This document shows, one piece after another, positions 12,362 through 34,800 of a stretch of DNA of 36,258 nucleotides. Position 1 is the stretch's first letter. Every line of letters begins with the position of its first letter. The DNA lies in the NCBI GenBank assembly GCA_018970725.1, contig JAGWVU010000047.1, positions 1-36,258 of the forward strand, written 5' to 3'. Source of the stretch: Verrucomicrobiota bacterium. GTDB taxonomy: Bacteria; Verrucomicrobiota; Verrucomicrobiia; Verrucomicrobiales; DEV007. Position numbers and translations under genes: made by a program. Below the pieces are notes generated by a model. That model did not search any database. It saw only the letters and a program-made list of their open reading frames with translations, and had not been told where the DNA came from.

Positions 12362-14032
12362 TCAAGGCAACGGGAAGTCCCGGTTCAGCTTGGCCACCCG
12401 TTCCCGGATGTCGTGGAGCCGCGCCTTGTCATCGCGATGGGTCAAGGCCTCGTGGATCCAGTCCCCGATGATCTCCATTTCGGTCTCCCGCATCCCACGG
12501 GTCGTGACGGCCGGGGTGCCGATGCGGATGCCGCCGCCGCGGAACGGGTTCTCCGTATCGAAGGGAATCGAGTTCTTGTTTACCGTGATGCCCGCTTCGT
12601 CGAGGGTTTCCTGGGCGGTTTTGCCATTCAACCCGTTCGGACGGAGATCGACGAGGAAGAGGTGATTGTCGCTCCCGCCCGAAAGCAACTTGTAACCGTG
12701 GCCGGACATCCGGTGGGCGAGGGCCTGGCAGTTCTTCACGATCTGTTGCTGGTATTCCTTGAATCCCGGTTGCAAGGCTTCGTGAAAACAGACCGCCTTG
12801 GCCGCGATCACGTGCATCAGCGGCCCGCCCTGGATGCCCGGGAAAACGAGGGAATCGAACTTCTTCGCCAGCTCCTCATCGTTGGTGAGGATCAGCCCGC
12901 CACGCGGTCCCCGCAGGCTCTTGTGCGTCGTCGTGGTCACGACATGGGCGTGTGCCATCGGACTCGGATGCACGCCCGCCGCCACGAGACCGGCGATATG
13001 CGCCATATCGACGAAAAGCAGCGCGCCCACGGAATCGGCGATTTGCCGCATCCTGGGGAAGTCGATGATCCGGGAATACGCGGAGGCACCGGCGGTGATC
13101 ATTTTGGGCTGGAACTCCCTGGCGGACTGCTCGAGGAGATCGTAATCGATGCGCCCCGTCTCCGCGGAGACCCCGTAGTGCTTTACCTCGTAAAATTTGC
13201 CCGAGAAATTGGCCGGATGGCCGTGGGTGAGGTGGCCGCCGTGGGAAAGATCCATGGTGAGGATGCGGTCCCCCAATCCAATGGTCGCGAAGTAGACCGC
13301 CGCGTTGGCCTGGGAACCGGAATGCGGCTGCACGTTGGCATACTTGGCGCCGAAGAGTTGTTTGGCCCGGGAAATAGCGAGGCGTTCGGCCTCGTCGACG
13401 TTTTCGCAACCGCCATACCAACGCTTCCCGGGATACCCCTCGGCGTATTTGTTGGTGAGGCAGGAGCCCTGGGCCTCCATCACCGCGGCGCTGGCGAAAT
13501 TCTCCGAGGCGATCAGTTCGATGCCCTCTTCCTGGCGGCGGCGCTCGGCCCGGATCGTGGCGAAGATTTCCGGATCGACCTCGGCGAGCGGTTTGCCCTC
13601 CATCTTGTGGACCCGGCGCTCATGCCGCCCGCCCTCGAATTCCGTGCGCAGAAAAGTCTCCACGATCTCCTTGGCGGTCTCGAAGCCGGTTTCGGAACCG
13701 CCAAGGCAGAGGACGTTGGCGTCGTTGTGCCGGCGGCACATCCCGGCCTCGCCGACGGTGTGCACCAGGGCGGCGCGGATACCCGGGACCTTGTTGGCGG
13801 CGATGGAGACTCCGATCCCGGTGGTGCAGATGAGAATGCCCCGACCCTCCGGATGGCCCGCCACCGCCGACGCAACCTCCCGGGCGACATCCGGGTAATC
13901 GACCGATTCAGGCCCGAAGGTGCCGACATCGTGCACCGTGGTTCCCGAGGCCTTGAGCCAGGCGACGAGTTGATTCTTCAATGCGACGCCACCGTGATCG
14001 GCGCCAAGGGTGAGTGGGGAATGTCCGGTCAT
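12362..14032 (-). CDS. glyA: Fusion of ribose-5-phosphate isomerase B and serine hydroxymethyltransferase
   Basis: A 556-aa two-domain protein. Residues 5-130 match RpiB/LacA isomerases: [25 protein letters not shown] with catalytic Cys69, and [13 protein letters not shown] with His102. Residues about 147-556 are a full-length [31 protein letters not shown], and [17 protein letters not shown] with PLP Lys371, and an intact C-terminus. The isomerase interconverts ribose-5-P and ribulose-5-P. SHMT converts serine and tetrahydrofolate to glycine and methylene-THF. Both active sites look intact, so it is probably bifunctional. The reading frame runs through the join with no stop and a short charged linker ([17 protein letters not shown]). 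In Bacillus the separate genes ywlE (LMW phosphatase), rpiB (ywlF) and glyA are near neighbours in that order. Here the phosphatase gene lies 61 bp upstream, so the fusion fits an old neighbourhood. Confidence 0.95.
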
Positions 14033-14690: not shown

Positions 14691-17600
14691 ATGCGCCCCC
14701 TGCTGCTGCTCGTTCCCCTGCTCGCCATTCCTTTCCCAGGCCACGCCGAAACCGCCTCCGCGTTGCTGGATCTTGCGGGCGTCAAGGGAGGGATCGTCGT
14801 CCAACTCGGCCTCGACGATCCCGCGCTGACCCGTTCCCTCCGGGCCAACGAATCGTTTCAGGTACAGGGACTCGACCGCGACCCGGCCAAAGTTTCCGCG
14901 GCCCGGGAAACCCTCCTTGGGGCGGGAGCCTACGGCCCTGTCAGCGTGGATCGTTGGGACGGCAAGGCCCTGCCTTACATCGACAACTTCGTGAACCTCG
15001 TCATCTCCGGTGAGCCCGGTTCCGTCCCGGACGCGGAAGTCGACCGGGTGCTGGTCCCCAACGGCGTCGTCCTCACCCGCCAGGATGGCAAATGGGTCAA
15101 GCGGATCAAAGCTCCCGATGCCCGCCGGGACGATTGGACCCATTATTACTACGACGCGCGCGGCAACGCCGTGTCCAAAGACAAGCTCGTGGGTCCGCCG
15201 CAACGGCTGCAATGGGTCGGCAACCCCCGTTGGTCCCGGCACCATGACCGGATGTCCAGCCTCTCCGCCCAGGTCAGTGCCAACGGCCGGATCTTTTCCG
15301 TGATGGACGAAGGATCCCGCATCTCCATCCTCCTCCCCTCCAAATGGAAACTCATCGCGAGGGACGCCTACAACGGCACCCTGCTCTGGAAGCTGCCGAT
15401 CGAAAAATGGTCCGAGCACATGTGGCCGCTCAAGACCGGCCCCACCCAGCTCACCCGGCGCCTCGTCGCCTCCGGAGACACGGTCTTTTTCACCCGCCAG
15501 CTGGAAGGACCGGTCGTCGCCCTCTCCGGCGCCACCGGCCAAGTCCTCCGAACCTTCGAGCAGACCAAGGGAACCGAGGAGATCCTCCACGTCGATGGCA
15601 TCCTCTACCTGCTCGTCAACCCGGGTCGATGGTCCCTCGCCGATTACGCCCCGCGCGAACAACAGGACCAGAAACGGGTGGCGGACGAATACGCCTGGGA
15701 TCGCAAACCGCGCCGCCTCATGGCCGTCCGGGCGGCCACCGGAGAGACCCTGTGGGACCGGGAAGCCACCGTCGCCCCCGTTACCTTGGCCACGGATGGG
15801 AAAAAACTGGTCTACTACGACGGCATCGGCGTGATCTGTCTGGACGCGGTCACGGGCCGGGAGCACTGGGCTTCCACCCCAGCCGGAATCCGGCCCCTCG
15901 TGGAATACAACTTCGGTCCGCGCGTCCTCCTCCACGACAACCTCGTCCTCTATGCCGGGGGGGACGGAGCCCAGAAAGCCTACGACCTCGCCTCGGGTCA
16001 GGAACTGTGGAAGGGCTCCCATGAGAAATCCGGCTACCGCTCCCCGGAGGATCTCATCGTCGCTTCCGGTCTCGTCTGGAACGCGGGCACCACTTCCGGC
16101 GGACAAAGCGGCGAGTTCATCGGGCGTGATCCCCGGACCGGCGAGGTGAAGGAACAGTTCGCCCCCAACGTTCCGGAGGGGACCTACTGGTTCCATCACC
16201 GGTGTTACATCGCCAAGGCGACCGAGAACTTCATCCTCCCCTCCCGGACCGGGATCGAATACGTGGATCTCGAAAAACAGAGTTGGGATCTGAACCACTG
16301 GGTGCGGGGCGCCTGTCTCTACGGGGTGCTCCCGGCCAACGGCCTGACCTACGCCGGTCCGCACAACTGCGCTTGCTATCCTGAGGCCAAACTGGATGGG
16401 ATCAACGCCCTCTCCGCCGCCTCCGGTTCCCCGCACCCCACCCCGAAACCAGACGCGGAACGCCTCGAACACGGCCCGGCCTGGGATGCGCCGGTGGACG
16501 AGGTTCCCGCCGACGCCAGGGACTGGCCCACTTACCGCAAGGACGCCGCGCGGAGCGGTTTCACCGATCAAGCCCTGTTGCCGGATCCCGGCTTGGCTTG
16601 GGAGGCGAGCCTTCCCGGTCCGTTGTCCGCGGTGACCGTGGCCGCCGGAAAACTTTTCGTCTGCCAGGTGGATGCCCATACCCTCCACGCGCTGGACGCC
16701 GCCAACGGCAAACCCCTCTGGCGTTTCACCGCCGGCGCCCGCATCGACTCCCCGCCGACCTGGTGGAACGGGCGGGTCTACTTCGGCGGCAAGGACGGTT
16801 GGGTTTATTGTCTGCGGGGGCAGGACGGCGCGCTCATCTGGCGGTTCCAGGCCGCTCCCGGCGATCGTCGGCACGGCGCATGGGAACAGATCGAGAGCGT
16901 GTGGCCGGTCCACGGCAGCGTCCTCGTGGAGAACGGCACGGTGAATTGCGTGGCCGGCCGGTCCATGTTTCTCGACGGCGGGCTCCGCTTCCTCCGTCTC
17001 GATGCCCTCACCGGAGCCAAGCTGGTGGAGGCGGTTTACGATGACCGGGACCCCGAGACGGGCGGCGATCTGCAGGACCGCCACATGACCCTCCAGATGC
17101 CGGTGGGGCTCAACGACATCCTCTCCAGCGACGGAAACCTGATGTATCTGCGCTCCCAGAAGATCGATGCCACCGGAAAGCGGATCGACATCGGCCCGGT
17201 GAGCGGGGACGCGGCCCGGCAGGGAGCAGCCCAGAAAGGGGAAAACCGCCATCTCTTCGCTCCGATGGGCTTTCTCGACGACTCCTGGTTCCACCGGAGT
17301 TACTGGGTTTACGGCAAGAACTTCGCGGGCGGCCACAGCGGCTACCATCAGGCGGGGAAATACACCCCCGAAGGCCGGATCCTGGTGCACGACAACAAGA
17401 ACGTCTACGGATTCGCCCGGCAGGCCCAGTATTACAAGTGGACCACCACGATGGAGCACGAGTTGTTCTCCGCCAGCAAGGAAGCACCGGACGCCCCCGA
17501 ACCGAAGGCCCCGGATGCCAAGGGCCAGGCCGGGCCGGGCGGACCCGCAAAGCCGAACGTGAAATTCCCCTCCGAGCCGCTCAAGATCGCCGGTACGCCG

Positions 17601-18614
17601 CTGAGCGTGGAAGCCTGGGTGCTGCCGGACGGGCAGGACGGCGTGATCGCCAACCATGGAGGAGCCCGGATGGGTTACGCCCTCGCCCTCGAGGACGGAC
17701 GTCCAGGGTTCACCGTGCGGCGCGACCCCGAAACCGTGGTCACCGCGGAGGCGCAGCGCCCCCTCGACCAAGGTTGGCACCATGTGGCGGGCGTGCTGGG
17801 TGAGAAAAGCCTCCGCCTTTACGTGGACGGCGAACTTGCCGCCGAGGCACCCGCCGGCGGCTTGATCGCCAGTCAACCCAACCTCGGCCTCCAACTCGGG
17901 GCTGCGAACACCTCACCGGTCGGCCCCTTCGGACGCGGCACCGCCTACACCGGTTTGCTGGACCAGTTCGCCCTCTTCGGCCGCGCGCTCAGCGAAACCG
18001 AAATCGTCATGCATTCCCAGGACGCGGCCGCCATCCAGTCCACCGCCAACCCGCTCCTCGTCACCACCTTCGACCAAGGAAACGCCCGCGATGAATCGCC
18101 ATCCAAGGCGAACGGCGTCCTCAGTGGCGTGGCCATCGGCAAAGGCAAAATCGCCCAGGCGCTCTGGTTCCAAAAGAGCACCGGGAAACCGGGCCTGCCG
18201 ATCGCCGCGGATCCCGGCAAGGGCAAGGGACGGAAAGCGGCCGCCGCTCCTGCCCAGGGCTCCTTCGTGGAACATCAATGGGCCCGCCCCGTTCCCATCT
18301 TCATCCGCGGCATGGCGCTGGCCGGCAAAACCATCTTCGTCGCCGGACCGCCCGATCAGGTCGACGAGGAATACGCCTTTGAACGCATGTCCGCCAAGGA
18401 CCCGGCCATCACGGAAGTGCTGGCCGAACAGGACGCCGCCCTCGACGGACAACGCGGGGCCAAGCTCTGGTCCGTCTCCACCGAGACCGGCGGTTCCTCC
18501 TCGGAGCTGGATCTAAAGAGCCCGCCCGTCTGGGATGGGCTCGCGGTCGCCCAAGGCCGCCTTTACACCGCCACGGTGGACGGCAAGGTGCTCTGTTTCG
18601 GCAAGCAGCCATGA
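14691..18614 (+). CDS. Giant secreted methyltransferase-like / PQQ-propeller / LamG protein
   Basis: A 1307-aa exported protein starting with a signal peptide (MRPLLLLVPLLAIPFPGHAE). Residues 22-125 resemble a class I SAM-methyltransferase Rossmann core: GGIVVQLGLDD at the motif I position, VQGLDRDPAKVSAAR, and ALPYIDNFVNLVI. The glycine loop is degenerate. Residues about 150-890 hold PQQ-type propeller strands, for example RDAYNGTLLWKLP, LMAVRAATGETLWDRE, VICLDAVTGREHW, LHALDAANGKPLWRF and VYCLRGQDGALIWRF. A Cys pair lies in PHNCACYPEAKLDG (560, 562). A Pro/Ala linker leads to a LamG-like jelly roll (about 965-1110; LSVEAWVLPD, WHHVAGVLGEKSLRLYVDGE, LLDQFALFGRALSETEI). A final propeller strand pair (YTATVDGKVLCFG) may close the blade. 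I chose the ATG at 14691 because it opens the signal peptide; an in-frame ATG at 14655 would place charged residues first. Its stop overlaps the next start (ATGA). Function is unknown; binding or an oxidoreductase-like role is only suggested by the folds. Confidence 0.85.
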   Translation: MRPLLLLVPLLAIPFPGHAETASALLDLAGVKGGIVVQLGLDDPALTRSLRANESFQVQGLDRDPAKVSAARETLLGAGAYGPVSVDRWDGKALPYIDNFVNLVISGEPGSVPDAEVDRVLVPNGVVLTRQDGKWVKRIKAPDARRDDWTHYYYDARGNAVSKDKLVGPPQRLQWVGNPRWSRHHDRMSSLSAQVSANGRIFSVMDEGSRISILLPSKWKLIARDAYNGTLLWKLPIEKWSEHMWPLKTGPTQLTRRLVASGDTVFFTRQLEGPVVALSGATGQVLRTFEQTKGTEEILHVDGILYLLVNPGRWSLADYAPREQQDQKRVADEYAWDRKPRRLMAVRAATGETLWDREATVAPVTLATDGKKLVYYDGIGVICLDAVTGREHWASTPAGIRPLVEYNFGPRVLLHDNLVLYAGGDGAQKAYDLASGQELWKGSHEKSGYRSPEDLIVASGLVWNAGTTSGGQSGEFIGRDPRTGEVKEQFAPNVPEGTYWFHHRCYIAKATENFILPSRTGIEYVDLEKQSWDLNHWVRGACLYGVLPANGLTYAGPHNCACYPEAKLDGINALSAASGSPHPTPKPDAERLEHGPAWDAPVDEVPADARDWPTYRKDAARSGFTDQALLPDPGLAWEASLPGPLSAVTVAAGKLFVCQVDAHTLHALDAANGKPLWRFTAGARIDSPPTWWNGRVYFGGKDGWVYCLRGQDGALIWRFQAAPGDRRHGAWEQIESVWPVHGSVLVENGTVNCVAGRSMFLDGGLRFLRLDALTGAKLVEAVYDDRDPETGGDLQDRHMTLQMPVGLNDILSSDGNLMYLRSQKIDATGKRIDIGPVSGDAARQGAAQKGENRHLFAPMGFLDDSWFHRSYWVYGKNFAGGHSGYHQAGKYTPEGRILVHDNKNVYGFARQAQYYKWTTTMEHELFSASKEAPDAPEPKAPDAKGQAGPGGPAKPNVKFPSEPLKIAGTPLSVEAWVLPDGQDGVIANHGGARMGYALALEDGRPGFTVRRDPETVVTAEAQRPLDQGWHHVAGVLGEKSLRLYVDGELAAEAPAGGLIASQPNLGLQLGAANTSPVGPFGRGTAYTGLLDQFALFGRALSETEIVMHSQDAAAIQSTANPLLVTTFDQGNARDESPSKANGVLSGVAIGKGKIAQALWFQKSTGKPGLPIAADPGKGKGRKAAAAPAQGSFVEHQWARPVPIFIRGMALAGKTIFVAGPPDQVDEEYAFERMSAKDPAITEVLAEQDAALDGQRGAKLWSVSTETGGSSSELDLKSPPVWDGLAVAQGRLYTATVDGKVLCFGKQP

Positions 18615-19612
18615 CCCGCCGTCTCCTCGTCGCCAGCCTCGGACTGATCGGCATCGGCGGGCTCGAGGCCTGCACCATCCCGGTCTTCCGTTACGCCCTT
18701 GACCGCTGGGCACCGGATCGCTACCGGCTGGAGGTCGCCGCCCGGGACGCGGCGGATCCCGAAATCGCCCGCTTCCTGCGCAACTCCGGGGCCACCTCTC
18801 CGCTGAATCTGGACGTCAAACGGCTCCCGCCCGAGGCTGCGGAACCTTCGCGGCTCTTCGCCCCCGGAGCAGAAACGCCGCTCTGGGAAGGCGCTCTCCA
18901 GCCTGCCACCCTGGCCGCATGGACGGACTCGCCGTTCGCCAACGAAGTTTCCCGCCGGCTCCTCTCCGGAGAGTCCTCCGTTTGGATCTTGGCGGAATCG
19001 GGTGACCCGGCGGCGGACGCCAAAGTCGCAGCGCTGATCGAGAACCGGTTGCGCTACCTGGAACAGGTGGCCCAACTTCCCGCCATCGACCCGGATGATC
19101 CCGACAGCCAACTCGGCCCCGGCCCGGCTTTGGCCGTGAAATTTTCCTTGTTGCGCCTTCCCGCCACAGCCGCCACCGCGTCCTTCCGTCGGCTTCTCGC
19201 CGGGACCGGGTCGGACTTGGCGACCTCGAACGAACCTTGGATCGCAGCGGTCTATGGCCGGGGCCGGGTTCTGGGCGCCTGGCGGGCCGCCTCGGTGGGC
19301 GACGAACAGATCGAGCAGGGCTGTCTCTTTCTCCTCGGTGCCTGCTCCTGCCGCGTCAAAAACCTCAACCCCGGTTGGGATCTCCTTCTGCCGGTGGACT
19401 GGGACGCCCGGCTCCAAGCCATGACGCCGCCCGATGCCCCCGCCCCGGAAGCACCACCCGATCCCGAGATGGTGCGGATTTCCGGACGAAGCGATTCCCC
19501 TCCCTCCGCCACCCCCGGTTGGCCGGGTTACGCCGGAGGCGGCGCGGTCCTCGCCGGTTTTCTTCTGGCGGGCCTTTCGATCCGGAGGCAGATTCTTGCC
19601 CGACGCCCATGA
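18611..19612 (+). CDS. Membrane-anchored extracytoplasmic protein of unknown function
   Basis: A 333-aa protein with an N-terminal hydrophobic segment (LLVASLGLIGIGGLEAC; Cys21 could be an atypical lipobox) and a C-terminal transmembrane helix (about 303-323) ending in Arg/Lys. The bulk therefore probably faces the periplasm. Just after the first segment is CTIPVFRYALDRWAPDRYRLEV. Near residue 245 is GACSCRVKNLNPGWDLLLPVDWD. I recall similar blocks in unnamed planctomycete and verrucomicrobial proteins but cannot give a function. Its ATG overlaps the TGA of the giant secreted protein gene (ATGA), and its own stop overlaps the next start in the same way, so the three are translationally coupled. 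The Cys-x-Cys pair could bind metal or a thiol partner; this is speculation. Confidence 0.75.
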   Translation: MTRRLLVASLGLIGIGGLEACTIPVFRYALDRWAPDRYRLEVAARDAADPEIARFLRNSGATSPLNLDVKRLPPEAAEPSRLFAPGAETPLWEGALQPATLAAWTDSPFANEVSRRLLSGESSVWILAESGDPAADAKVAALIENRLRYLEQVAQLPAIDPDDPDSQLGPGPALAVKFSLLRLPATAATASFRRLLAGTGSDLATSNEPWIAAVYGRGRVLGAWRAASVGDEQIEQGCLFLLGACSCRVKNLNPGWDLLLPVDWDARLQAMTPPDAPAPEAPPDPEMVRISGRSDSPPSATPGWPGYAGGGAVLAGFLLAGLSIRRQILARRP

Positions 19613-21153
19613 TCCCGTTGCGCATCGTTTTCTTCCTGCTGACCGCGGCGGTTCCACTCGCCCTGACCGGTTGTTCCCGCGCCCCAGCCCCCCCTTCTCT
19701 CCGGGTCTTCTGCGCCGCCAACCTCAAGAAACCGGTCGAGGAGGCCGCGCGGCGGTTCCGCGAGGAATCGGGCGTGGAAATCCAACTCCAATTCGGAGGT
19801 TCAGGCACTCTGGTGAGTCAACTCCGCGTCGCCAAACAGGGAGACCTCTTCCTTGCCTCAGACTCGGGTTCCATGGAGGACGCGCGCCGCTTCGAACTGG
19901 TCCGGGAAATCCTGCCGGTTGCCAAACAACATCCGGTGATCGCCGTGGCGATCGGAAATCCCAAGAAAATCGCCCGCCTTGAGGACCTCCTCCGGGCGGA
20001 TCTCAAGGTTGCCCTCGCCAACCCCGAGGCCGCCAGCATCGGCCGCATCACCCAAGCCCTTCTTTCCAAAATCCCGCGGGACGGCAAGACATTCTGGGAT
20101 GTCCTCGCCGCCAAGGTTACCGTGATGAAGCCGACCGTGACCGAAATCGCCGCCGATCTCAGCCTCGGATCGGTCGATGCCGCCATCACCTTCGATTCCA
20201 CGATCGCCCAGTTCCCCAAGCTGCAGGCGGTCGAGGTCTCCCCTCTCCGCGAAGCCGGGGAAACCGCCGCCGCCGGAATCCTCGCTTTCAGCCGGGAACC
20301 CACCCTGGCCCTCCGCTTCGCCCGCTACCTCAACGCGCCGGAAAAGGGAGGCGCCATCTTCAAAGCAAACGGATTCACCCCGGCGGGCGGGGATCGCTGG
20401 GCCACCCGACCGGAACTCATCCTCTACAGCGGGGGCGTCAACCGACCCGCCATCGAACCCCTTCTCCAGGAATTCGCCGATCGCGAGGGCGTCGATCTCA
20501 CCACCGTGTTCAACGGATGCGGCATCCTCTGCGCCACCATGAAAACCATGGGAGACGCCTCCAACCCCCGGTTCCCCGACGTCTATTATGCCTGTGATCT
20601 CTGCTTCGTCCCCCCGGTGGCCGAACATTTCCGGGAATCCGTCCTCCTCACGGAAACGCCCATCGGCATCGCCCTCCCTCCCGGCAACCCCGGTGCCATC
20701 AAAACCTTGGCCGACCTCGCCCGGCCCGGCTTGCGGCTCGGTCTCTGCAACGCCCGGCAGAGCACCCTCGGCTACATGACCCAAGGCATTCTCAAGGATT
20801 CCGGTCTCCTCGAGGCCATTCGCAAGAATGTGGCCGTGGAGGTGCCCACCGCGGACTTTCTCATCAACCAACTCCGGGCCGGAGGCCTCGACGCGGTCGT
20901 CGTCTACCAGGTCAATGCCCAATCCGCCTCCACCCCCCTCGAATTCATCCCCATCCAACACCCCGGAGCCAAGGCGGTGCAACCGTTCGCCGTCCGGGAT
21001 GACTCCGCCCACCGCCAACTCGGGCTTCGTCTCCTCGCGTTCCTCCGGGCCCATCAATCCAACTTCGAACAAGTCGGCTTCGCCTGGCGGGGCGATGCCC
21101 CTCCCCTCCCCAGCGATCGCATCGAAATCCCACCCTGGCTCAAGGCCGAGTGA
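19609..21153 (+). CDS. Lipoprotein with two tandem ModA-like substrate-binding domains
   Basis: A 514-aa protein with a signal and lipobox (LALTGC, Cys22), so probably lipid-anchored. Two periplasmic binding modules of the molybdate/tungstate type follow. Module 1 (about 31-260) begins LRVFCAANLKKPVEEAARRF and continues FGGSGTLVSQL, GDLFLASDSGSM and GSVDAAITFDST. Module 2 (about 268-500) begins LILYSGGVNRPAIEPLLQEF and continues FNGCGILCATMK, YYACDLCFVP, NARQSTLGYMTQGIL and GLDAVVVYQVNA. Single-domain ModA is about 230-260 aa, so this is a duplication. Module 2 carries two cysteine pairs, Cys304/Cys308 and Cys329/Cys332, absent from module 1. The ATG at 19609 overlaps the previous stop (ATGA). 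The permease gene follows 4 bp after its stop. The ligand may be an oxyanion, but the cysteines leave other ligands open. Confidence 0.87.
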   Translation: MIPLRIVFFLLTAAVPLALTGCSRAPAPPSLRVFCAANLKKPVEEAARRFREESGVEIQLQFGGSGTLVSQLRVAKQGDLFLASDSGSMEDARRFELVREILPVAKQHPVIAVAIGNPKKIARLEDLLRADLKVALANPEAASIGRITQALLSKIPRDGKTFWDVLAAKVTVMKPTVTEIAADLSLGSVDAAITFDSTIAQFPKLQAVEVSPLREAGETAAAGILAFSREPTLALRFARYLNAPEKGGAIFKANGFTPAGGDRWATRPELILYSGGVNRPAIEPLLQEFADREGVDLTTVFNGCGILCATMKTMGDASNPRFPDVYYACDLCFVPPVAEHFRESVLLTETPIGIALPPGNPGAIKTLADLARPGLRLGLCNARQSTLGYMTQGILKDSGLLEAIRKNVAVEVPTADFLINQLRAGGLDAVVVYQVNAQSASTPLEFIPIQHPGAKAVQPFAVRDDSAHRQLGLRLLAFLRAHQSNFEQVGFAWRGDAPPLPSDRIEIPPWLKAE

Positions 21154-21157
21154 CCCG

Positions 21158-21940
21158 TTGAAACCGCCCCGCCCATCCCCCCTCTGGATCGCCCTCGGGC
21201 TCGTCACCGGCCTCTATGCCTCCTTCCTCCTCGCCATGCTGCTGGCGACGGCGACCTACACTTCCCTGCCGGACCTGGGGAAGGCCCTGTCCACCCGGGA
21301 GATCCGGCATTCCATCCAGTTGAGCTTCCTCACCTGCACCGCATCCTCCCTGCTCTCCGTGGCTTTGGCGGTCCCGGCCGGTTATTTTCTCTCCCGCTCC
21401 CGATTCAGGGGAAAACAATGGCTCGATGCCTTTCTCGACGTCCCCATCGTCCTCCCGCCCATGGTCATCGGGCTTTGCCTGCTGATTCTCTTCCAAACGG
21501 GTTTGGGCCGGTTCATCGAACAAGCCATCCCCTTCACCTACACCGTGGCGGGAGTCGTCCTGGCTCAAGTGGTCATCGGAGCGGCCTTCGCGGTGCGCAC
21601 CATGCGCGGCACCTTCGATCACCTTTCCCCCCGCCCCGAGGAAGTGGCCATGACCCTGGGTTGTTCACGGGCCCAAGCCATCTGGCTCGTCACCCTGCCC
21701 TTGGCCCGAAAAGGGATCTTTGCCGCCGCCAGTGTGGCCTGGGCCCGCAGTCTTGGGGAGTTCGGACCGATCCTCGTTTTCGCGGGGGCCACCCGCATGC
21801 GAACGGAGGTGCTGCCAACGACGGTCTGGCTCGAACTGAGCGTAGGAAATCTGGAGGCGGCGGTCGCCGTCAGCCTGCTGATGGTCGCACTGGCCCTCGC
21901 CGTGCTCACGGCGGTGCGTGGGGCCGGGGAGCAGGTCTGA
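21158..21940 (+). CDS. ModB-like ABC transporter permease
   Basis: A 260-aa inner-membrane permease with five to six helices, of the ModB/CysTW class. The cytoplasmic EAA-type loop is visible (EEVAMTLGCSRAQAIWLVTLPLARKGI, about 163-188), followed by the ModB-like ARSLGEFGPILVFAG. No ATG precedes the first helix; a TTG at 21158, four bases after the lipoprotein stop, gives LKPPRPSPLWIALGL and is the most reasonable start. A later ATG would fall within helix 1. It should pair with the tandem binding lipoprotein upstream. No ABC ATPase gene follows: the next gene is rpsT on the other strand, 24 bp away, so the ATPase must be encoded elsewhere or shared. Confidence 0.88.
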   Translation: MKPPRPSPLWIALGLVTGLYASFLLAMLLATATYTSLPDLGKALSTREIRHSIQLSFLTCTASSLLSVALAVPAGYFLSRSRFRGKQWLDAFLDVPIVLPPMVIGLCLLILFQTGLGRFIEQAIPFTYTVAGVVLAQVVIGAAFAVRTMRGTFDHLSPRPEEVAMTLGCSRAQAIWLVTLPLARKGIFAAASVAWARSLGEFGPILVFAGATRMRTEVLPTTVWLELSVGNLEAAVAVSLLMVALALAVLTAVRGAGEQV

Positions 21941-21964: not shown

Positions 21965-22228
21965 TCAACCGAGCGTGGCGAGCAGCCGGGACCCGGCGCT
22001 CTTGTAACGAGCCACGGTGTTCTTCTGGAGAACGTTCTTCTTGGCAGCCTTGTCCGCAGCGGCGAAAAGCTCGCGCAGGGTGGACTCGGCGGCTTCCTTT
22101 TGCTTGCCGGCGACAGCGGCCGCGAGTTTCTTGCGGAAGGTCTTCACGCGGCTCTTGAGAGCCCGATTGCGCAGGGTCCGGACCTCGGTTTGACGAACGC
22201 GCTTGGCAGCTGACTTGATGTTGGGCAT
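21965..22228 (-). CDS. rpsT: 30S ribosomal protein S20
   Basis: An 87-aa basic protein. MPNIKSAAKRVRQTEVRTLRN is the standard bS20 start, and the rest is Lys/Ala-rich helix (LKSRVKTFRKKL, ATRE-like ESTLRELFAAADKAAKKNVLQKNTVARYKS). It binds 16S rRNA early in small-subunit assembly. The ATG at 22226-22228 is fixed by the family N-terminus; the longer frame upstream is not conserved-looking. It converges on the permease gene and follows the L,D-transpeptidase gene by 67 bp on the same strand. No Shine-Dalgarno is visible. Confidence 0.97.
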   Translation of the reverse strand: MPNIKSAAKRVRQTEVRTLRNRALKSRVKTFRKKLAAAVAGKQKEAAESTLRELFAAADKAAKKNVLQKNTVARYKSAGSRLLATLG

Positions 22229-32857: not shown

Positions 32858-34753
32858 TCACCGCGTGGTTTCATCCGCACCCAGATCCGCCAGAAGCTTG
32901 GTCTTCACGCTCCGCGCATACTTGGCCACCCGCTCGTTCGGCGGGTTCAAAGGTTCCGCGGAGGTGGCTCGCACCCTGTCCAAAACCGGCCGGACCCGGT
33001 CGTCCAACTCGTCGAGCGCGTTCCATGCCGCCAGGGCTGCGAACACATCTCCCGCGGGATCGATTTCCTTTACCAAAACCTCGAGCGCCCTCGCCAACTC
33101 GTCCTCGCCCCCAAAACGCCCCAACGCCTCGGCCGCCCCGATCCGCACCATTGGCGACGCATCCTCCAACGCCCCCACCAAGCGATCCTTGCCCGCTTCC
33201 ACCGCCGCCGCGCCCTGCACCAAAACGCCGATCGTCCCCCAATACCGCTGGGCCGCATCCGACCGCTCCAGAAGCGCCAGAATTTCCGGGACGCTCCCCT
33301 CCCGGCGCGCCGTGGCCAGGGTCGCAGCGGCAAAAACGGAGCCGAAATCATAAAGCGCCGGGTCATGCCCCATCGTGTAGGGACAGACTCCCGCCGCCGC
33401 CGCCCGCGCATGAAATTCCGATTCCGGCAAAAACCCGAGGTCACGGGTCTCACGCAAATGCTCTTCGTTTGCCCCGCGCATCGCCGCGAGGATGCCCGCA
33501 TGATCCCGGGACCCCACCAAATTCCGCACCTCGTCGGGGTCGGCCTGCAGATCATACAGTTCTTCCGCCGGTTTCGGGCTCCAGAACCGCGACTGCACTT
33601 CGTTCAATTTCCCCGCCGCGTTCAGATCGTGCCAGACCCGGGTGGTGGGCGTCTGGAACATGTAGTTGATGTATTGGCCGTAAATCTTGTGTGGCAGGTA
33701 GTTGCGGACGTAAACATACCGCCCGCCGATCACCGATCGCACGCAGTCGAAACGCTCATCCATCCGGCCACGATATCCGAAATTGAACGAGCGTCCGCCG
33801 GTCTGTGATGGACCCGCGAACGCCTCGCCTTGCATCCAGGCAGGGGGCTTGATTCCGGCCAGGCTGAGCATCGTCGGCGCCAGATCCACAAACGCCACCA
33901 TGCGGCCGCTCTCTCCGCCCTCCACATAATCCCGCGGGGACAGGGCTCGCCATTTCGCCGGGAAGGACACAATCAGAGGAACGCTCAGACCGGAATGATA
34001 GGGCCACCGCTTGTGGCGCGGCATCCCCGACCCGTGATCCGCCCAATAAAAGACGATCGTTTCGTCCTCCAGACCCGCCTCCGCCAGTTCCTGCAACTTC
34101 TGCCCGCACTGCGCGTCCATCATGGTGATCCGGTCATGATACTGCGCCCAGTCTTTGCGGACCTCGGGCGTATCCGGATGGTAGGCCGGCACCCGAACCT
34201 TGGCCGGATCATGGATCCGATCCGCCTCCGCAATCTGGTTCCGGATCTGGGATTCGTGGGAAATCTGGAAGTTGAAGACCGCGAAAAAGGGCTGCCCCGC
34301 CCCACGGTTTTTCCAGTGCGCTTTACCCGAACTCTCGTCCCAAAGCGTCCCGGCATTCGTCAGGTTGTAGTCTTCTTTCGAGTTGTTCGTGCAGTAATAC
34401 CCCGCATCCCGCAAGGTCCTGGGGAAAAGTTGGAACTCGGCCGGTAGCGACACCGCCGATCGCATGTGCTCCGCCCCCGCCCCCGGCGCATACAGCCCGG
34501 TGATCACCGTGGTCCGGGCAGGGGCGCAGACCGGGGCGTTGGAAATCGCATGGGTGTAGCGCATCCCCCGGGCCGCCAAACCGTCCAGGTGCGGCGTCAC
34601 CGCCATTGGCTCCCCGTAACAGCCGAGATCCGGGCCGTTGTCCTCACTCGTGATCCACAGAATGTTCGGACGCGCCGGAGCCACGCCACCCTGCGTTGGC
34701 CGCATGAAAGCCCAGAGAAACACTACCGATAGAAAGATTGGCCTGACCGTCAT
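32858..34753 (-). CDS. Secreted formylglycine-dependent sulfatase with HEAT-like tail
   Basis: A 631-aa exported sulfatase (family S1). A signal peptide (MTVRPIFLSVVFLWAFMRPTQGG) precedes the catalytic domain: NILWITSEDNGPDLGCYG holds metal-binding acidic residues, and CAPARTTVITG (Cys76-A-P-A-Arg80) is the C-x-P-x-R sequence converted to formylglycine. YWADHGSGMPRHKRWPYHSG holds the distal metal site. Residues about 480-631 are short helical HEAT-like repeats (VPEILALLERSDAAQRYWG, MVRIGAAEALGRFGGEDEL). The ATG at 34751-34753 was preferred to the GTG three codons upstream. Substrate is probably a sulfated glycan, as with many verrucomicrobial sulfatases. No maturase (FGE or anSME) gene is in the window. 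Confidence 0.93.
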   Translation of the reverse strand: MTVRPIFLSVVFLWAFMRPTQGGVAPARPNILWITSEDNGPDLGCYGEPMAVTPHLDGLAARGMRYTHAISNAPVCAPARTTVITGLYAPGAGAEHMRSAVSLPAEFQLFPRTLRDAGYYCTNNSKEDYNLTNAGTLWDESSGKAHWKNRGAGQPFFAVFNFQISHESQIRNQIAEADRIHDPAKVRVPAYHPDTPEVRKDWAQYHDRITMMDAQCGQKLQELAEAGLEDETIVFYWADHGSGMPRHKRWPYHSGLSVPLIVSFPAKWRALSPRDYVEGGESGRMVAFVDLAPTMLSLAGIKPPAWMQGEAFAGPSQTGGRSFNFGYRGRMDERFDCVRSVIGGRYVYVRNYLPHKIYGQYINYMFQTPTTRVWHDLNAAGKLNEVQSRFWSPKPAEELYDLQADPDEVRNLVGSRDHAGILAAMRGANEEHLRETRDLGFLPESEFHARAAAAGVCPYTMGHDPALYDFGSVFAAATLATARREGSVPEILALLERSDAAQRYWGTIGVLVQGAAAVEAGKDRLVGALEDASPMVRIGAAEALGRFGGEDELARALEVLVKEIDPAGDVFAALAAWNALDELDDRVRPVLDRVRATSAEPLNPPNERVAKYARSVKTKLLADLGADETTR

Positions 34754-34800
34754 CTGAAACACCGCTTATTTCCCACGCTTTCCATTCTGGAAGAAAAGTA

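Follow-up and report, generated by a model that had tools for sequence, protein, structure and literature searches.

Verrucomicrobiota encode a putative ATP-binding cassette (ABC) uptake system of unusual composition, the envelope half of which appears to be specified by four consecutive genes (P1, P2, ModA2 and ModB) in a 36,258-nucleotide stretch of DNA from a member of the DEV007 lineage (GenBank assembly GCA_018970725.1, contig JAGWVU010000047.1). This stretch, hereafter the window, fills contig C36 of its genome. The four genes and a MoaD–ThiF–ModC trio on contig C20 of the same genome are one system split over two loci. It is probably a co-inherited uptake system that replaces ModABC, and we lean toward the view that its cargo is molybdenum or tungsten, taken up by an ABC system of this design in place of ModABC in this phylum; it would be an ABC oxyanion importer with unusual parts. 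The argument is built on the observed gene content, conservation, co-occurrence, folds and two-locus split. The genes of the unit and its downstream boundary are as follows.

14691–18614 (+), P1: 1307 amino acids; BamB-like beta-propeller repeats, a LamG domain and a weak methyltransferase-like N-terminal match
18611–19612 (+), P2: 333 amino acids; thioredoxin-like domain at residues 106–242, C-terminal helix, no Pfam or NCBIfam family
19609–21153 (+), ModA2: 514 amino acids; tandem substrate-binding protein with two ModA folds
21158–21940 (+), ModB: 260 amino acids; ABC importer permease with a TTG start
21968–22228 (−), ribosomal protein S20 gene: convergent boundary, at a place where many relatives have ModC and ThiF

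All four reading frames are open, and their junctions are tight. The ATG start of P2 at 18611 overlaps the TGA stop of P1 (18612–18614) as ATGA (18611–18614), the start of ModA2 at 19609 overlaps the stop of P2 (19610–19612) in the same way (19609–19612), and the TTG start of ModB at 21158 lies 4 bp downstream of the TGA stop of ModA2 (21151–21153). These coordinates and junctions agree with a first-pass annotation made from the sequence alone. Orthologues that occur elsewhere in the same order at about 39–71% identity establish P1, P2, ModA2 and ModB as real genes. The unit contains no ATPase gene, and the S20 gene converges on its 3′ side. Searching the same genome with a ThiF alignment gave a strong match at C20:14542–15267, in a region (locus L151) that encodes a 95-residue MoaD-like protein, ThiF, whose gene joins that of MoaD by an ATGA overlap, and then an ATPase. 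The MoaD-like gene (L151:9249–9524) scored 32.4 bits against PF02597, over the cut-off of 22.5, and its product ends in MTPIAGG; ThiF matched PF00899 at 162.9 bits. The ModC ATPase has 212 residues and matched ABC_tran only; at E 0.001 it gave no hit to the molybdate-binding domain that the ModC of ModABC carries at its C terminus. The same MoaD–ThiF–ATPase trio is present in the same-genus genome G002. As the MoaD–ThiF–ModC operon sits on contig C20, the importer of the window is a split system. The four genes of the first-pass annotation are not a self-contained device; in relatives, six consecutive genes are often found.

The arrangement recurs in relatives, which were collected by scanning genome contigs for P2. 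A single-sequence scan confirmed no relative, and an alignment scan confirmed at least 572, the best 80 of which were kept as named loci; profiles built from the first relatives were then run on these 80 and on further loci. In a gene-order sample of 89 loci, many of them broken off by contig ends, the order P1–P2–ModA2–ModB with no other profiled gene between was found in 21; three contigs are represented twice, which leaves 18 distinct loci. This is in keeping with the earlier proposal that the four products form a set. Gaps or genes without relation to the system can intervene (L037 and L058 are examples). All six genes, in the order P1–P2–ModA2–ModB–ModC–ThiF, were found in 12 of the 89 (10 distinct). 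Among the best 80 of the at least 572 loci, 74 are sufficiently long, and in 38 of these ModA2 comes after P2 within 600 bases. ModB comes after ModA2 in 22 of 32, and ModC after ModB in 22 of 24. ThiF comes after ModC in 16 of 21; the remaining 5 loci have it at another position. When 63 loci long on both sides of P2 were compared, 19 had P1 before and ModA2 after, 13 had ModA2 only, 10 had P1 only and 21 had neither, 9 of these 21 having a further system gene at some other position. Linkage is thus genuine without being universal.

Co-occurrence was assessed in a panel of 57 related genomes, including that of the window. Tandem ModA, called at 494 bits or more (the next best hit, with one domain, scored 342), was found in 29 of the 57, and P2 in exactly the same 29, with zero discordant genomes. 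The dedicated ThiF, called at 298 bits or more (next best 201) and bearing four invariant cysteines that we take to be zinc ligands, was present in all 29 and additionally in G002, which is 81% complete and in which no ModA2 was found, and in G031, which has a one-domain ModA2 relative. P1 (E ≤ 1e-100) was detected in 22 genomes, every one of them among the 29 (p 5.6e-10); counted by genus, 12 of 12 fall within the 16 of 29 genera that have tandem ModA (p 5.9e-5). The giant protein thus does not occur mostly without the transporter, a pattern that the first-pass annotation had named as evidence against its proposal. The other 7 genomes with tandem ModA gave no P1; scoring covered no more than 11 first-look candidates in each genome, so these absences are less certain than the presences. 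In G009 a short P1 end lies at a contig edge. Adjacency, which the annotation had also made a test, held for the gene order described above but not throughout, as just 5 of the 22 genomes have their best P1 match on the contig that carries ModA2, and 17 have it on a different one. Fourteen P1 loci, picked for being off the ModA2 contig and some of them on short contigs, held no other system gene, so the tie of P1 to the system does not come from linkage alone.

The system extends beyond these close relatives, into distant families of the phylum. Across 174 genomes spanning the phylum, with up to 8 ModA2 candidates scored in each, two-domain ModA2 was found in 11, including that of the window. 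The ten other genomes provide 11 loci (two copies in G077), and ModB and ModC lie beside ModA2 in 10 of these; a strong ThiF is present in 8, FtsX-like and LolD-like genes in 6, P2 in 5 and MoaD in 5. The ancestral unit may have been P2–FtsX–LolD with ModA2–ModB–ModC and MoaD–ThiF, P1 having joined in one clade.

A link to molybdenum is suggested by the distribution of the classical binding protein (TIGR01256, 136 bits or more). Genomes were scored positive for the molybdenum cofactor (Moco) when MoaE, MoaC and/or MoeA were present, which held for 50 of the 57. Of these, 28 have tandem ModA only, 12 classical ModA only, 1 both and 9 neither (p 2.5e-5). Restricting the count to the 34 Moco-positive genomes among 40 of high quality gave 19 with tandem only, 10 with classical only, 1 with both and 4 with neither (p 7e-5). 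In the remaining 7 genomes of the panel MoaE, MoaC and MoeA were all not found, and 7 of 7 have neither tandem nor classical ModA. Genera g1 and g2 contain some species with tandem and others with classical ModA, which argues for repeated replacement. Rfam motifs, that of the molybdenum-cofactor riboswitch included, were searched in six sources and gave one tRNA and nothing else.

The binding protein itself is a tandem of ModA-like domains. Pfam assigned two SBP_bac_11 stretches to ModA2, which scored 66.7 bits against the TIGR01256 modA cut-off of 62.5; the margin is narrow, and a six-frame scan gave 60.7. The predicted model (mean predicted local distance difference test score, pLDDT, 91.1) contains two ModA folds in series, each of which aligned to solved ModA structures with template modeling (TM) scores of 0.80–0.85 at about 20% identity. 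A lipobox-like C22 was recognized by eye, in keeping with the duplicated ModA-like lipoprotein of the first-pass annotation. Within 15 aligned sequences, C35 in domain 1 and C304 and C329 in domain 2 are cysteine in all 15, while C308, C332 and C380 are cysteine in 8 of 8 sequences of the window's clade and in 0 of 7 others. Aligning the two domains with each other placed C304 opposite S65 and C329 opposite S84. The ligand serines of ModA are Ser12 and Ser39 in E. coli numbering. In alignments to PDB structures the Ser39 position corresponds to S65 in domain 1 (serine or threonine in 15 of 15) and to Cys304 in domain 2, and the Ser12 position in domain 1 is N38 here and glycine or alanine in the other 14 sequences. 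Given these residues at the ligand-serine positions, domain 1 looks like an altered oxyanion site and domain 2 like a cysteine-bearing site.

Directly 3′ of ModA2 in 5 of 116 loci (the neighbor-cluster sample, after removal of 5 duplicate loci) lies a rhodanese-domain gene, which suggests envelope sulfur handling; the copy in L032 was tested against Pfam and appears lipoprotein-like by eye.

L031:6460–6951, rhodanese-domain gene after ModA2
L032:12287–12748, rhodanese-domain gene after ModA2
L066:12583–12924, rhodanese-domain gene after ModA2
L088:5931–6404, rhodanese-domain gene after ModA2
L103:2793–3218, rhodanese-domain gene after ModA2

A ModA2 relative with the first domain only was found in G031 (G031:C32:21169–21954, corresponding to L167:9209–9937; the matched stretch includes one TAG). 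In this locus ModB starts about 140 bases after the one-domain gene, MoaD–ThiF precede it and ModC is also adjacent. G004, G023 and G045 likewise have single-domain relatives.

P2 matched neither a Pfam nor an NCBIfam family at E 0.1. Its N terminus resembles a signal peptide, and the C-terminal helix (residues 308–330) is compatible with a membrane anchor. Across 20 sequences the invariant cysteines are C21 and C245-x-C247, and no conserved CxxC motif, the hallmark sought for a thioredoxin active site, was present. In the AlphaFold2 model (pLDDT 85.3), residues 106–242 are thioredoxin-like (best Z 9.4, 2.4 Å over 99 residues). A Foldseek search with the whole protein returned no PDB match at E ≤ 0.001. 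P2 was also considered as a tandem thioredoxin, the top matches being ERp57 b–b′ and calsequestrin; as the root mean square deviation (rmsd) was near 15 Å, that reading is weak and only residues 106–242 are well matched. Several genomes hold two or three members of the P2 family, and a P2 gene is present in L063, from the cultured relative Brevifollis. In L043, L045, L048, L050, L170 and L172, P2 relatives adjoin an FtsX-like permease and a LolD-like ATPase, placed in those clades as if a second ABC machine were part of the system. P2 paralogues also occur with FtsX, LolD and a different propeller protein (L045:8492–13969 and L048:9452–17925) or with FtsX (L044:16597–18889) in the absence of an adjoining ModA2; in L044 a ModA2–ModB–ModC set ends about 4.5 kb away.

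P1, whose N terminus resembles a signal peptide by eye, is assigned BamB-like PQQ_2 repeats by Pfam (E 4.4e-31), with a LamG domain spanning residues 955–1105. The first-pass annotation had called it a giant methyltransferase-like/PQQ/LamG protein. The propeller and LamG parts of this label stand. The methyltransferase part is weak, as the models fell below their cut-offs (Methyltransf_25, 18.5 bits versus 27; Methyltransf_11, 15.6 versus 21.2). For PQQ-dependent dehydrogenases, P1 scored 34.6 against PF01011, over the cut-off of 26.7, with a best stretch of only 34 residues, and 42.6 against TIGR03075, far under the cut-off of 480. Binding of pyrroloquinoline quinone by P1 is unsupported.

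Taken as an uptake system, the parts suggest a division of labor. The four window genes would supply the envelope half, in which ModA2 would capture an oxyanion of molybdenum or tungsten, or a sulfur-bearing form, at the membrane and pass it to ModB, with import driven by the ModC ATPase from contig C20. P2, cysteine-bearing and anchored, may act alongside in redox reactions, in the handling of thiols or in delivering metal. In the cytoplasm the MoaD-like/ThiF pair would make a thiocarboxylate or another activated C terminus, a product that could link uptake to cofactor or sulfur chemistry. P1, present in a large share of the species, would be an accessory protein of the envelope that probably serves as a scaffold or as an outer module for capture. 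The idea in the first-pass annotation of extracytoplasmic ligand capture feeding an importer is possible on this scheme.

Several observations weigh against molybdenum or tungsten uptake as the role of the system. In domain 2, all 15 of 15 sequences have cysteine where ModA has a ligand serine, and domain 1 is without the second such serine, so that binding of molybdate in the usual way cannot be taken for granted. The cysteine domain may be dispensable, as the one-domain relative of G031 keeps MoaD, ThiF, ModB and ModC. The exclusion between binding proteins is weaker within family f1 alone (1 both, 25 tandem, 4 classical and 6 neither; p 0.015), and all of these p values overstate independence because the genomes are related. 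G014 has both binding proteins and nine Moco-positive genomes have neither at the thresholds used, the latter class including G004, G023, G031 and G045 with their single-domain ModA2 relatives. Four of the 29 genomes with tandem ModA (G008, G010, G024 and G029) gave no MoaE match, and the genome of the window has further ThiF and ThiS/MoaD genes besides the C20 pair. A non-Moco role for MoaD/ThiF was considered from the MoaE gaps and is weakened by the presence of MoaC and/or MoeA in each of the four genomes.

A bolder form of the uptake hypothesis, which we hold only tentatively, is that the system constitutes a fourth prokaryotic class of molybdenum/tungsten acquisition beside ModABC, WtpABC and TupABC. 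In this class the tandem binding protein would offer one site for an oxyanion and another bearing cysteine and would take up sulfur-ligated or thiol-exchanged metal with the help of P2 and P1, and handover to the MoaD/E1 pair would directly couple transport to the sulfur chemistry of the cofactor. Three ABC classes are named in PMC6147048. The permease and ATPases match some WtpABC and TupABC models, but the scores are far under the curated cut-offs: ModB reached 136.4 against NF040839 (Wtp, cut-off 340) and 49.5 against NF041773 (TupB, cut-off 320), and the ATPases of relatives L033 and L046, although scoring best to WtpC (216.8 and 196.8), remained under the NF040840 cut-off of 440. The known WtpABC and TupABC systems have single binding domains. 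Tandem substrate-binding domains are known from GlnPQ, which ranked first for ModA2 in Foldseek (6h30). There the substrate-binding domains are fused to the permease, whereas ModA2 is a separate protein with ModA-like domains; with a whole-length rmsd of 20.6, only the tandem plan is common to the two.

It is unlikely, in our view, that the system is plain ModABC with a duplicated binding protein, P1, P2, ThiF and MoaD being hitch-hikers or parts of the normal molybdopterin pathway. The ModA fold, the ModB-like permease and the ABC ATPase do resemble ModABC, domain 1 exceeds the TIGR01256 cut-off, and the exclusion with classical ModA in Moco-positive genomes looks like that of a substitute; MoaD and MoeB, furthermore, are Moco enzymes in general. 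However, P2 and ThiF track tandem ModA genome by genome, ThiF even from a separate contig, and P1 does so despite its mostly off-contig position. ModB scored exactly at the TIGR01581 cut-off (210.3 bits) but below that of TIGR02141 modB (164.5 versus 182.6). The system also differs from ModABC in its two fused binding domains with invariant cysteines, those of domain 2 among them, in the additional P1, P2, ThiF and MoaD, and in its short ATPase, which here lies at another locus and matches the transporter model ABC_tran only. Against TIGR02142 (cut-off 285) the ATPases of relatives L033 and L046 scored 159.5 and 144.4 bits. The GG-ending MoaD-like protein adjoining an E1-like ThiF recalls MoaD/MoeB and ThiS/ThiF, but here the pair is tied to a tandem-ModA importer and P2, and the ThiF proteins of L033, L046 and L043 missed the TIGR02355 moeB cut-off of 376.55 (124.0, 155.4 and 130.5).

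Equally improbable to us is that the cargo is a sulfur-bearing or thiophilic ligand other than molybdenum or tungsten, such as a thiosulfate-like oxyanion or a copper complex, with MoaD/ThiF, P2 and rhodanese handling its sulfur. The invariant cysteines of ModA2, C21 and C245-x-C247 of P2 and the rhodanese genes behind ModA2 would fit such a cargo, as would the MoaD/E1 neighborhoods with sulfite/sulfate ABC transporters described in PMC1779556. The exclusion with classical ModA and the absence of the system from the 7 Moco-negative genomes speak against it, and neither JAB nor SirA, members of the published sulfur neighborhoods, was recognized by eye among the 35 commonest neighbor clusters. 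No molybdoenzyme was recognized by eye among these clusters either, each of which occurs in at most 13 of the 116 loci; no profile search was made. That the system serves tungsten supply to aldehyde ferredoxin oxidoreductase (AOR) with its own MoaD/MoeB is very improbable: AOR neighborhoods with MoaD and often MoeB are described in PMC1779556, and the L033 and L046 ATPases score best, below cut-off, to WtpC, but AOR, the usual tungsten enzyme (PF01314), was found in 0 of the 57 genomes while 5 of 14 controls gave a signal.

Beyond the unit, the region upstream of P1 contains a low-molecular-weight phosphatase gene and, on the other strand, a 556-residue frame (12362–14032, −) that Pfam resolves as a natural fusion of LacAB_rpiB (178 bits) and serine hydroxymethyltransferase (568 bits). 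Close to the contig end, a sulfatase with a HEAT-repeat match (Pfam) is encoded at 32861–34762 (−).

Literature searches, judged by titles and abstract openings and with most subscription journals outside coverage, brought up no description of this system, in line with the first-pass view that the layout is not a described one. PMC1779556 treats MoaD clusters that include AOR and others that include sulfite/sulfate transporters, and the terms ModA and Verrucomicrob do not occur in its text. According to PMC6147048, 278 of 3683 molybdenum-using bacteria have no known molybdenum transporter, and further uptake systems were suggested as a possibility. The system reported here is a concrete candidate, within one phylum, for such missing molybdenum uptake, with partner genes and residues named. 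P2 and the giant P1, two groups of unknown role, would gain a functional context, and an E1/ubiquitin-like pair would be linked to a metal importer.

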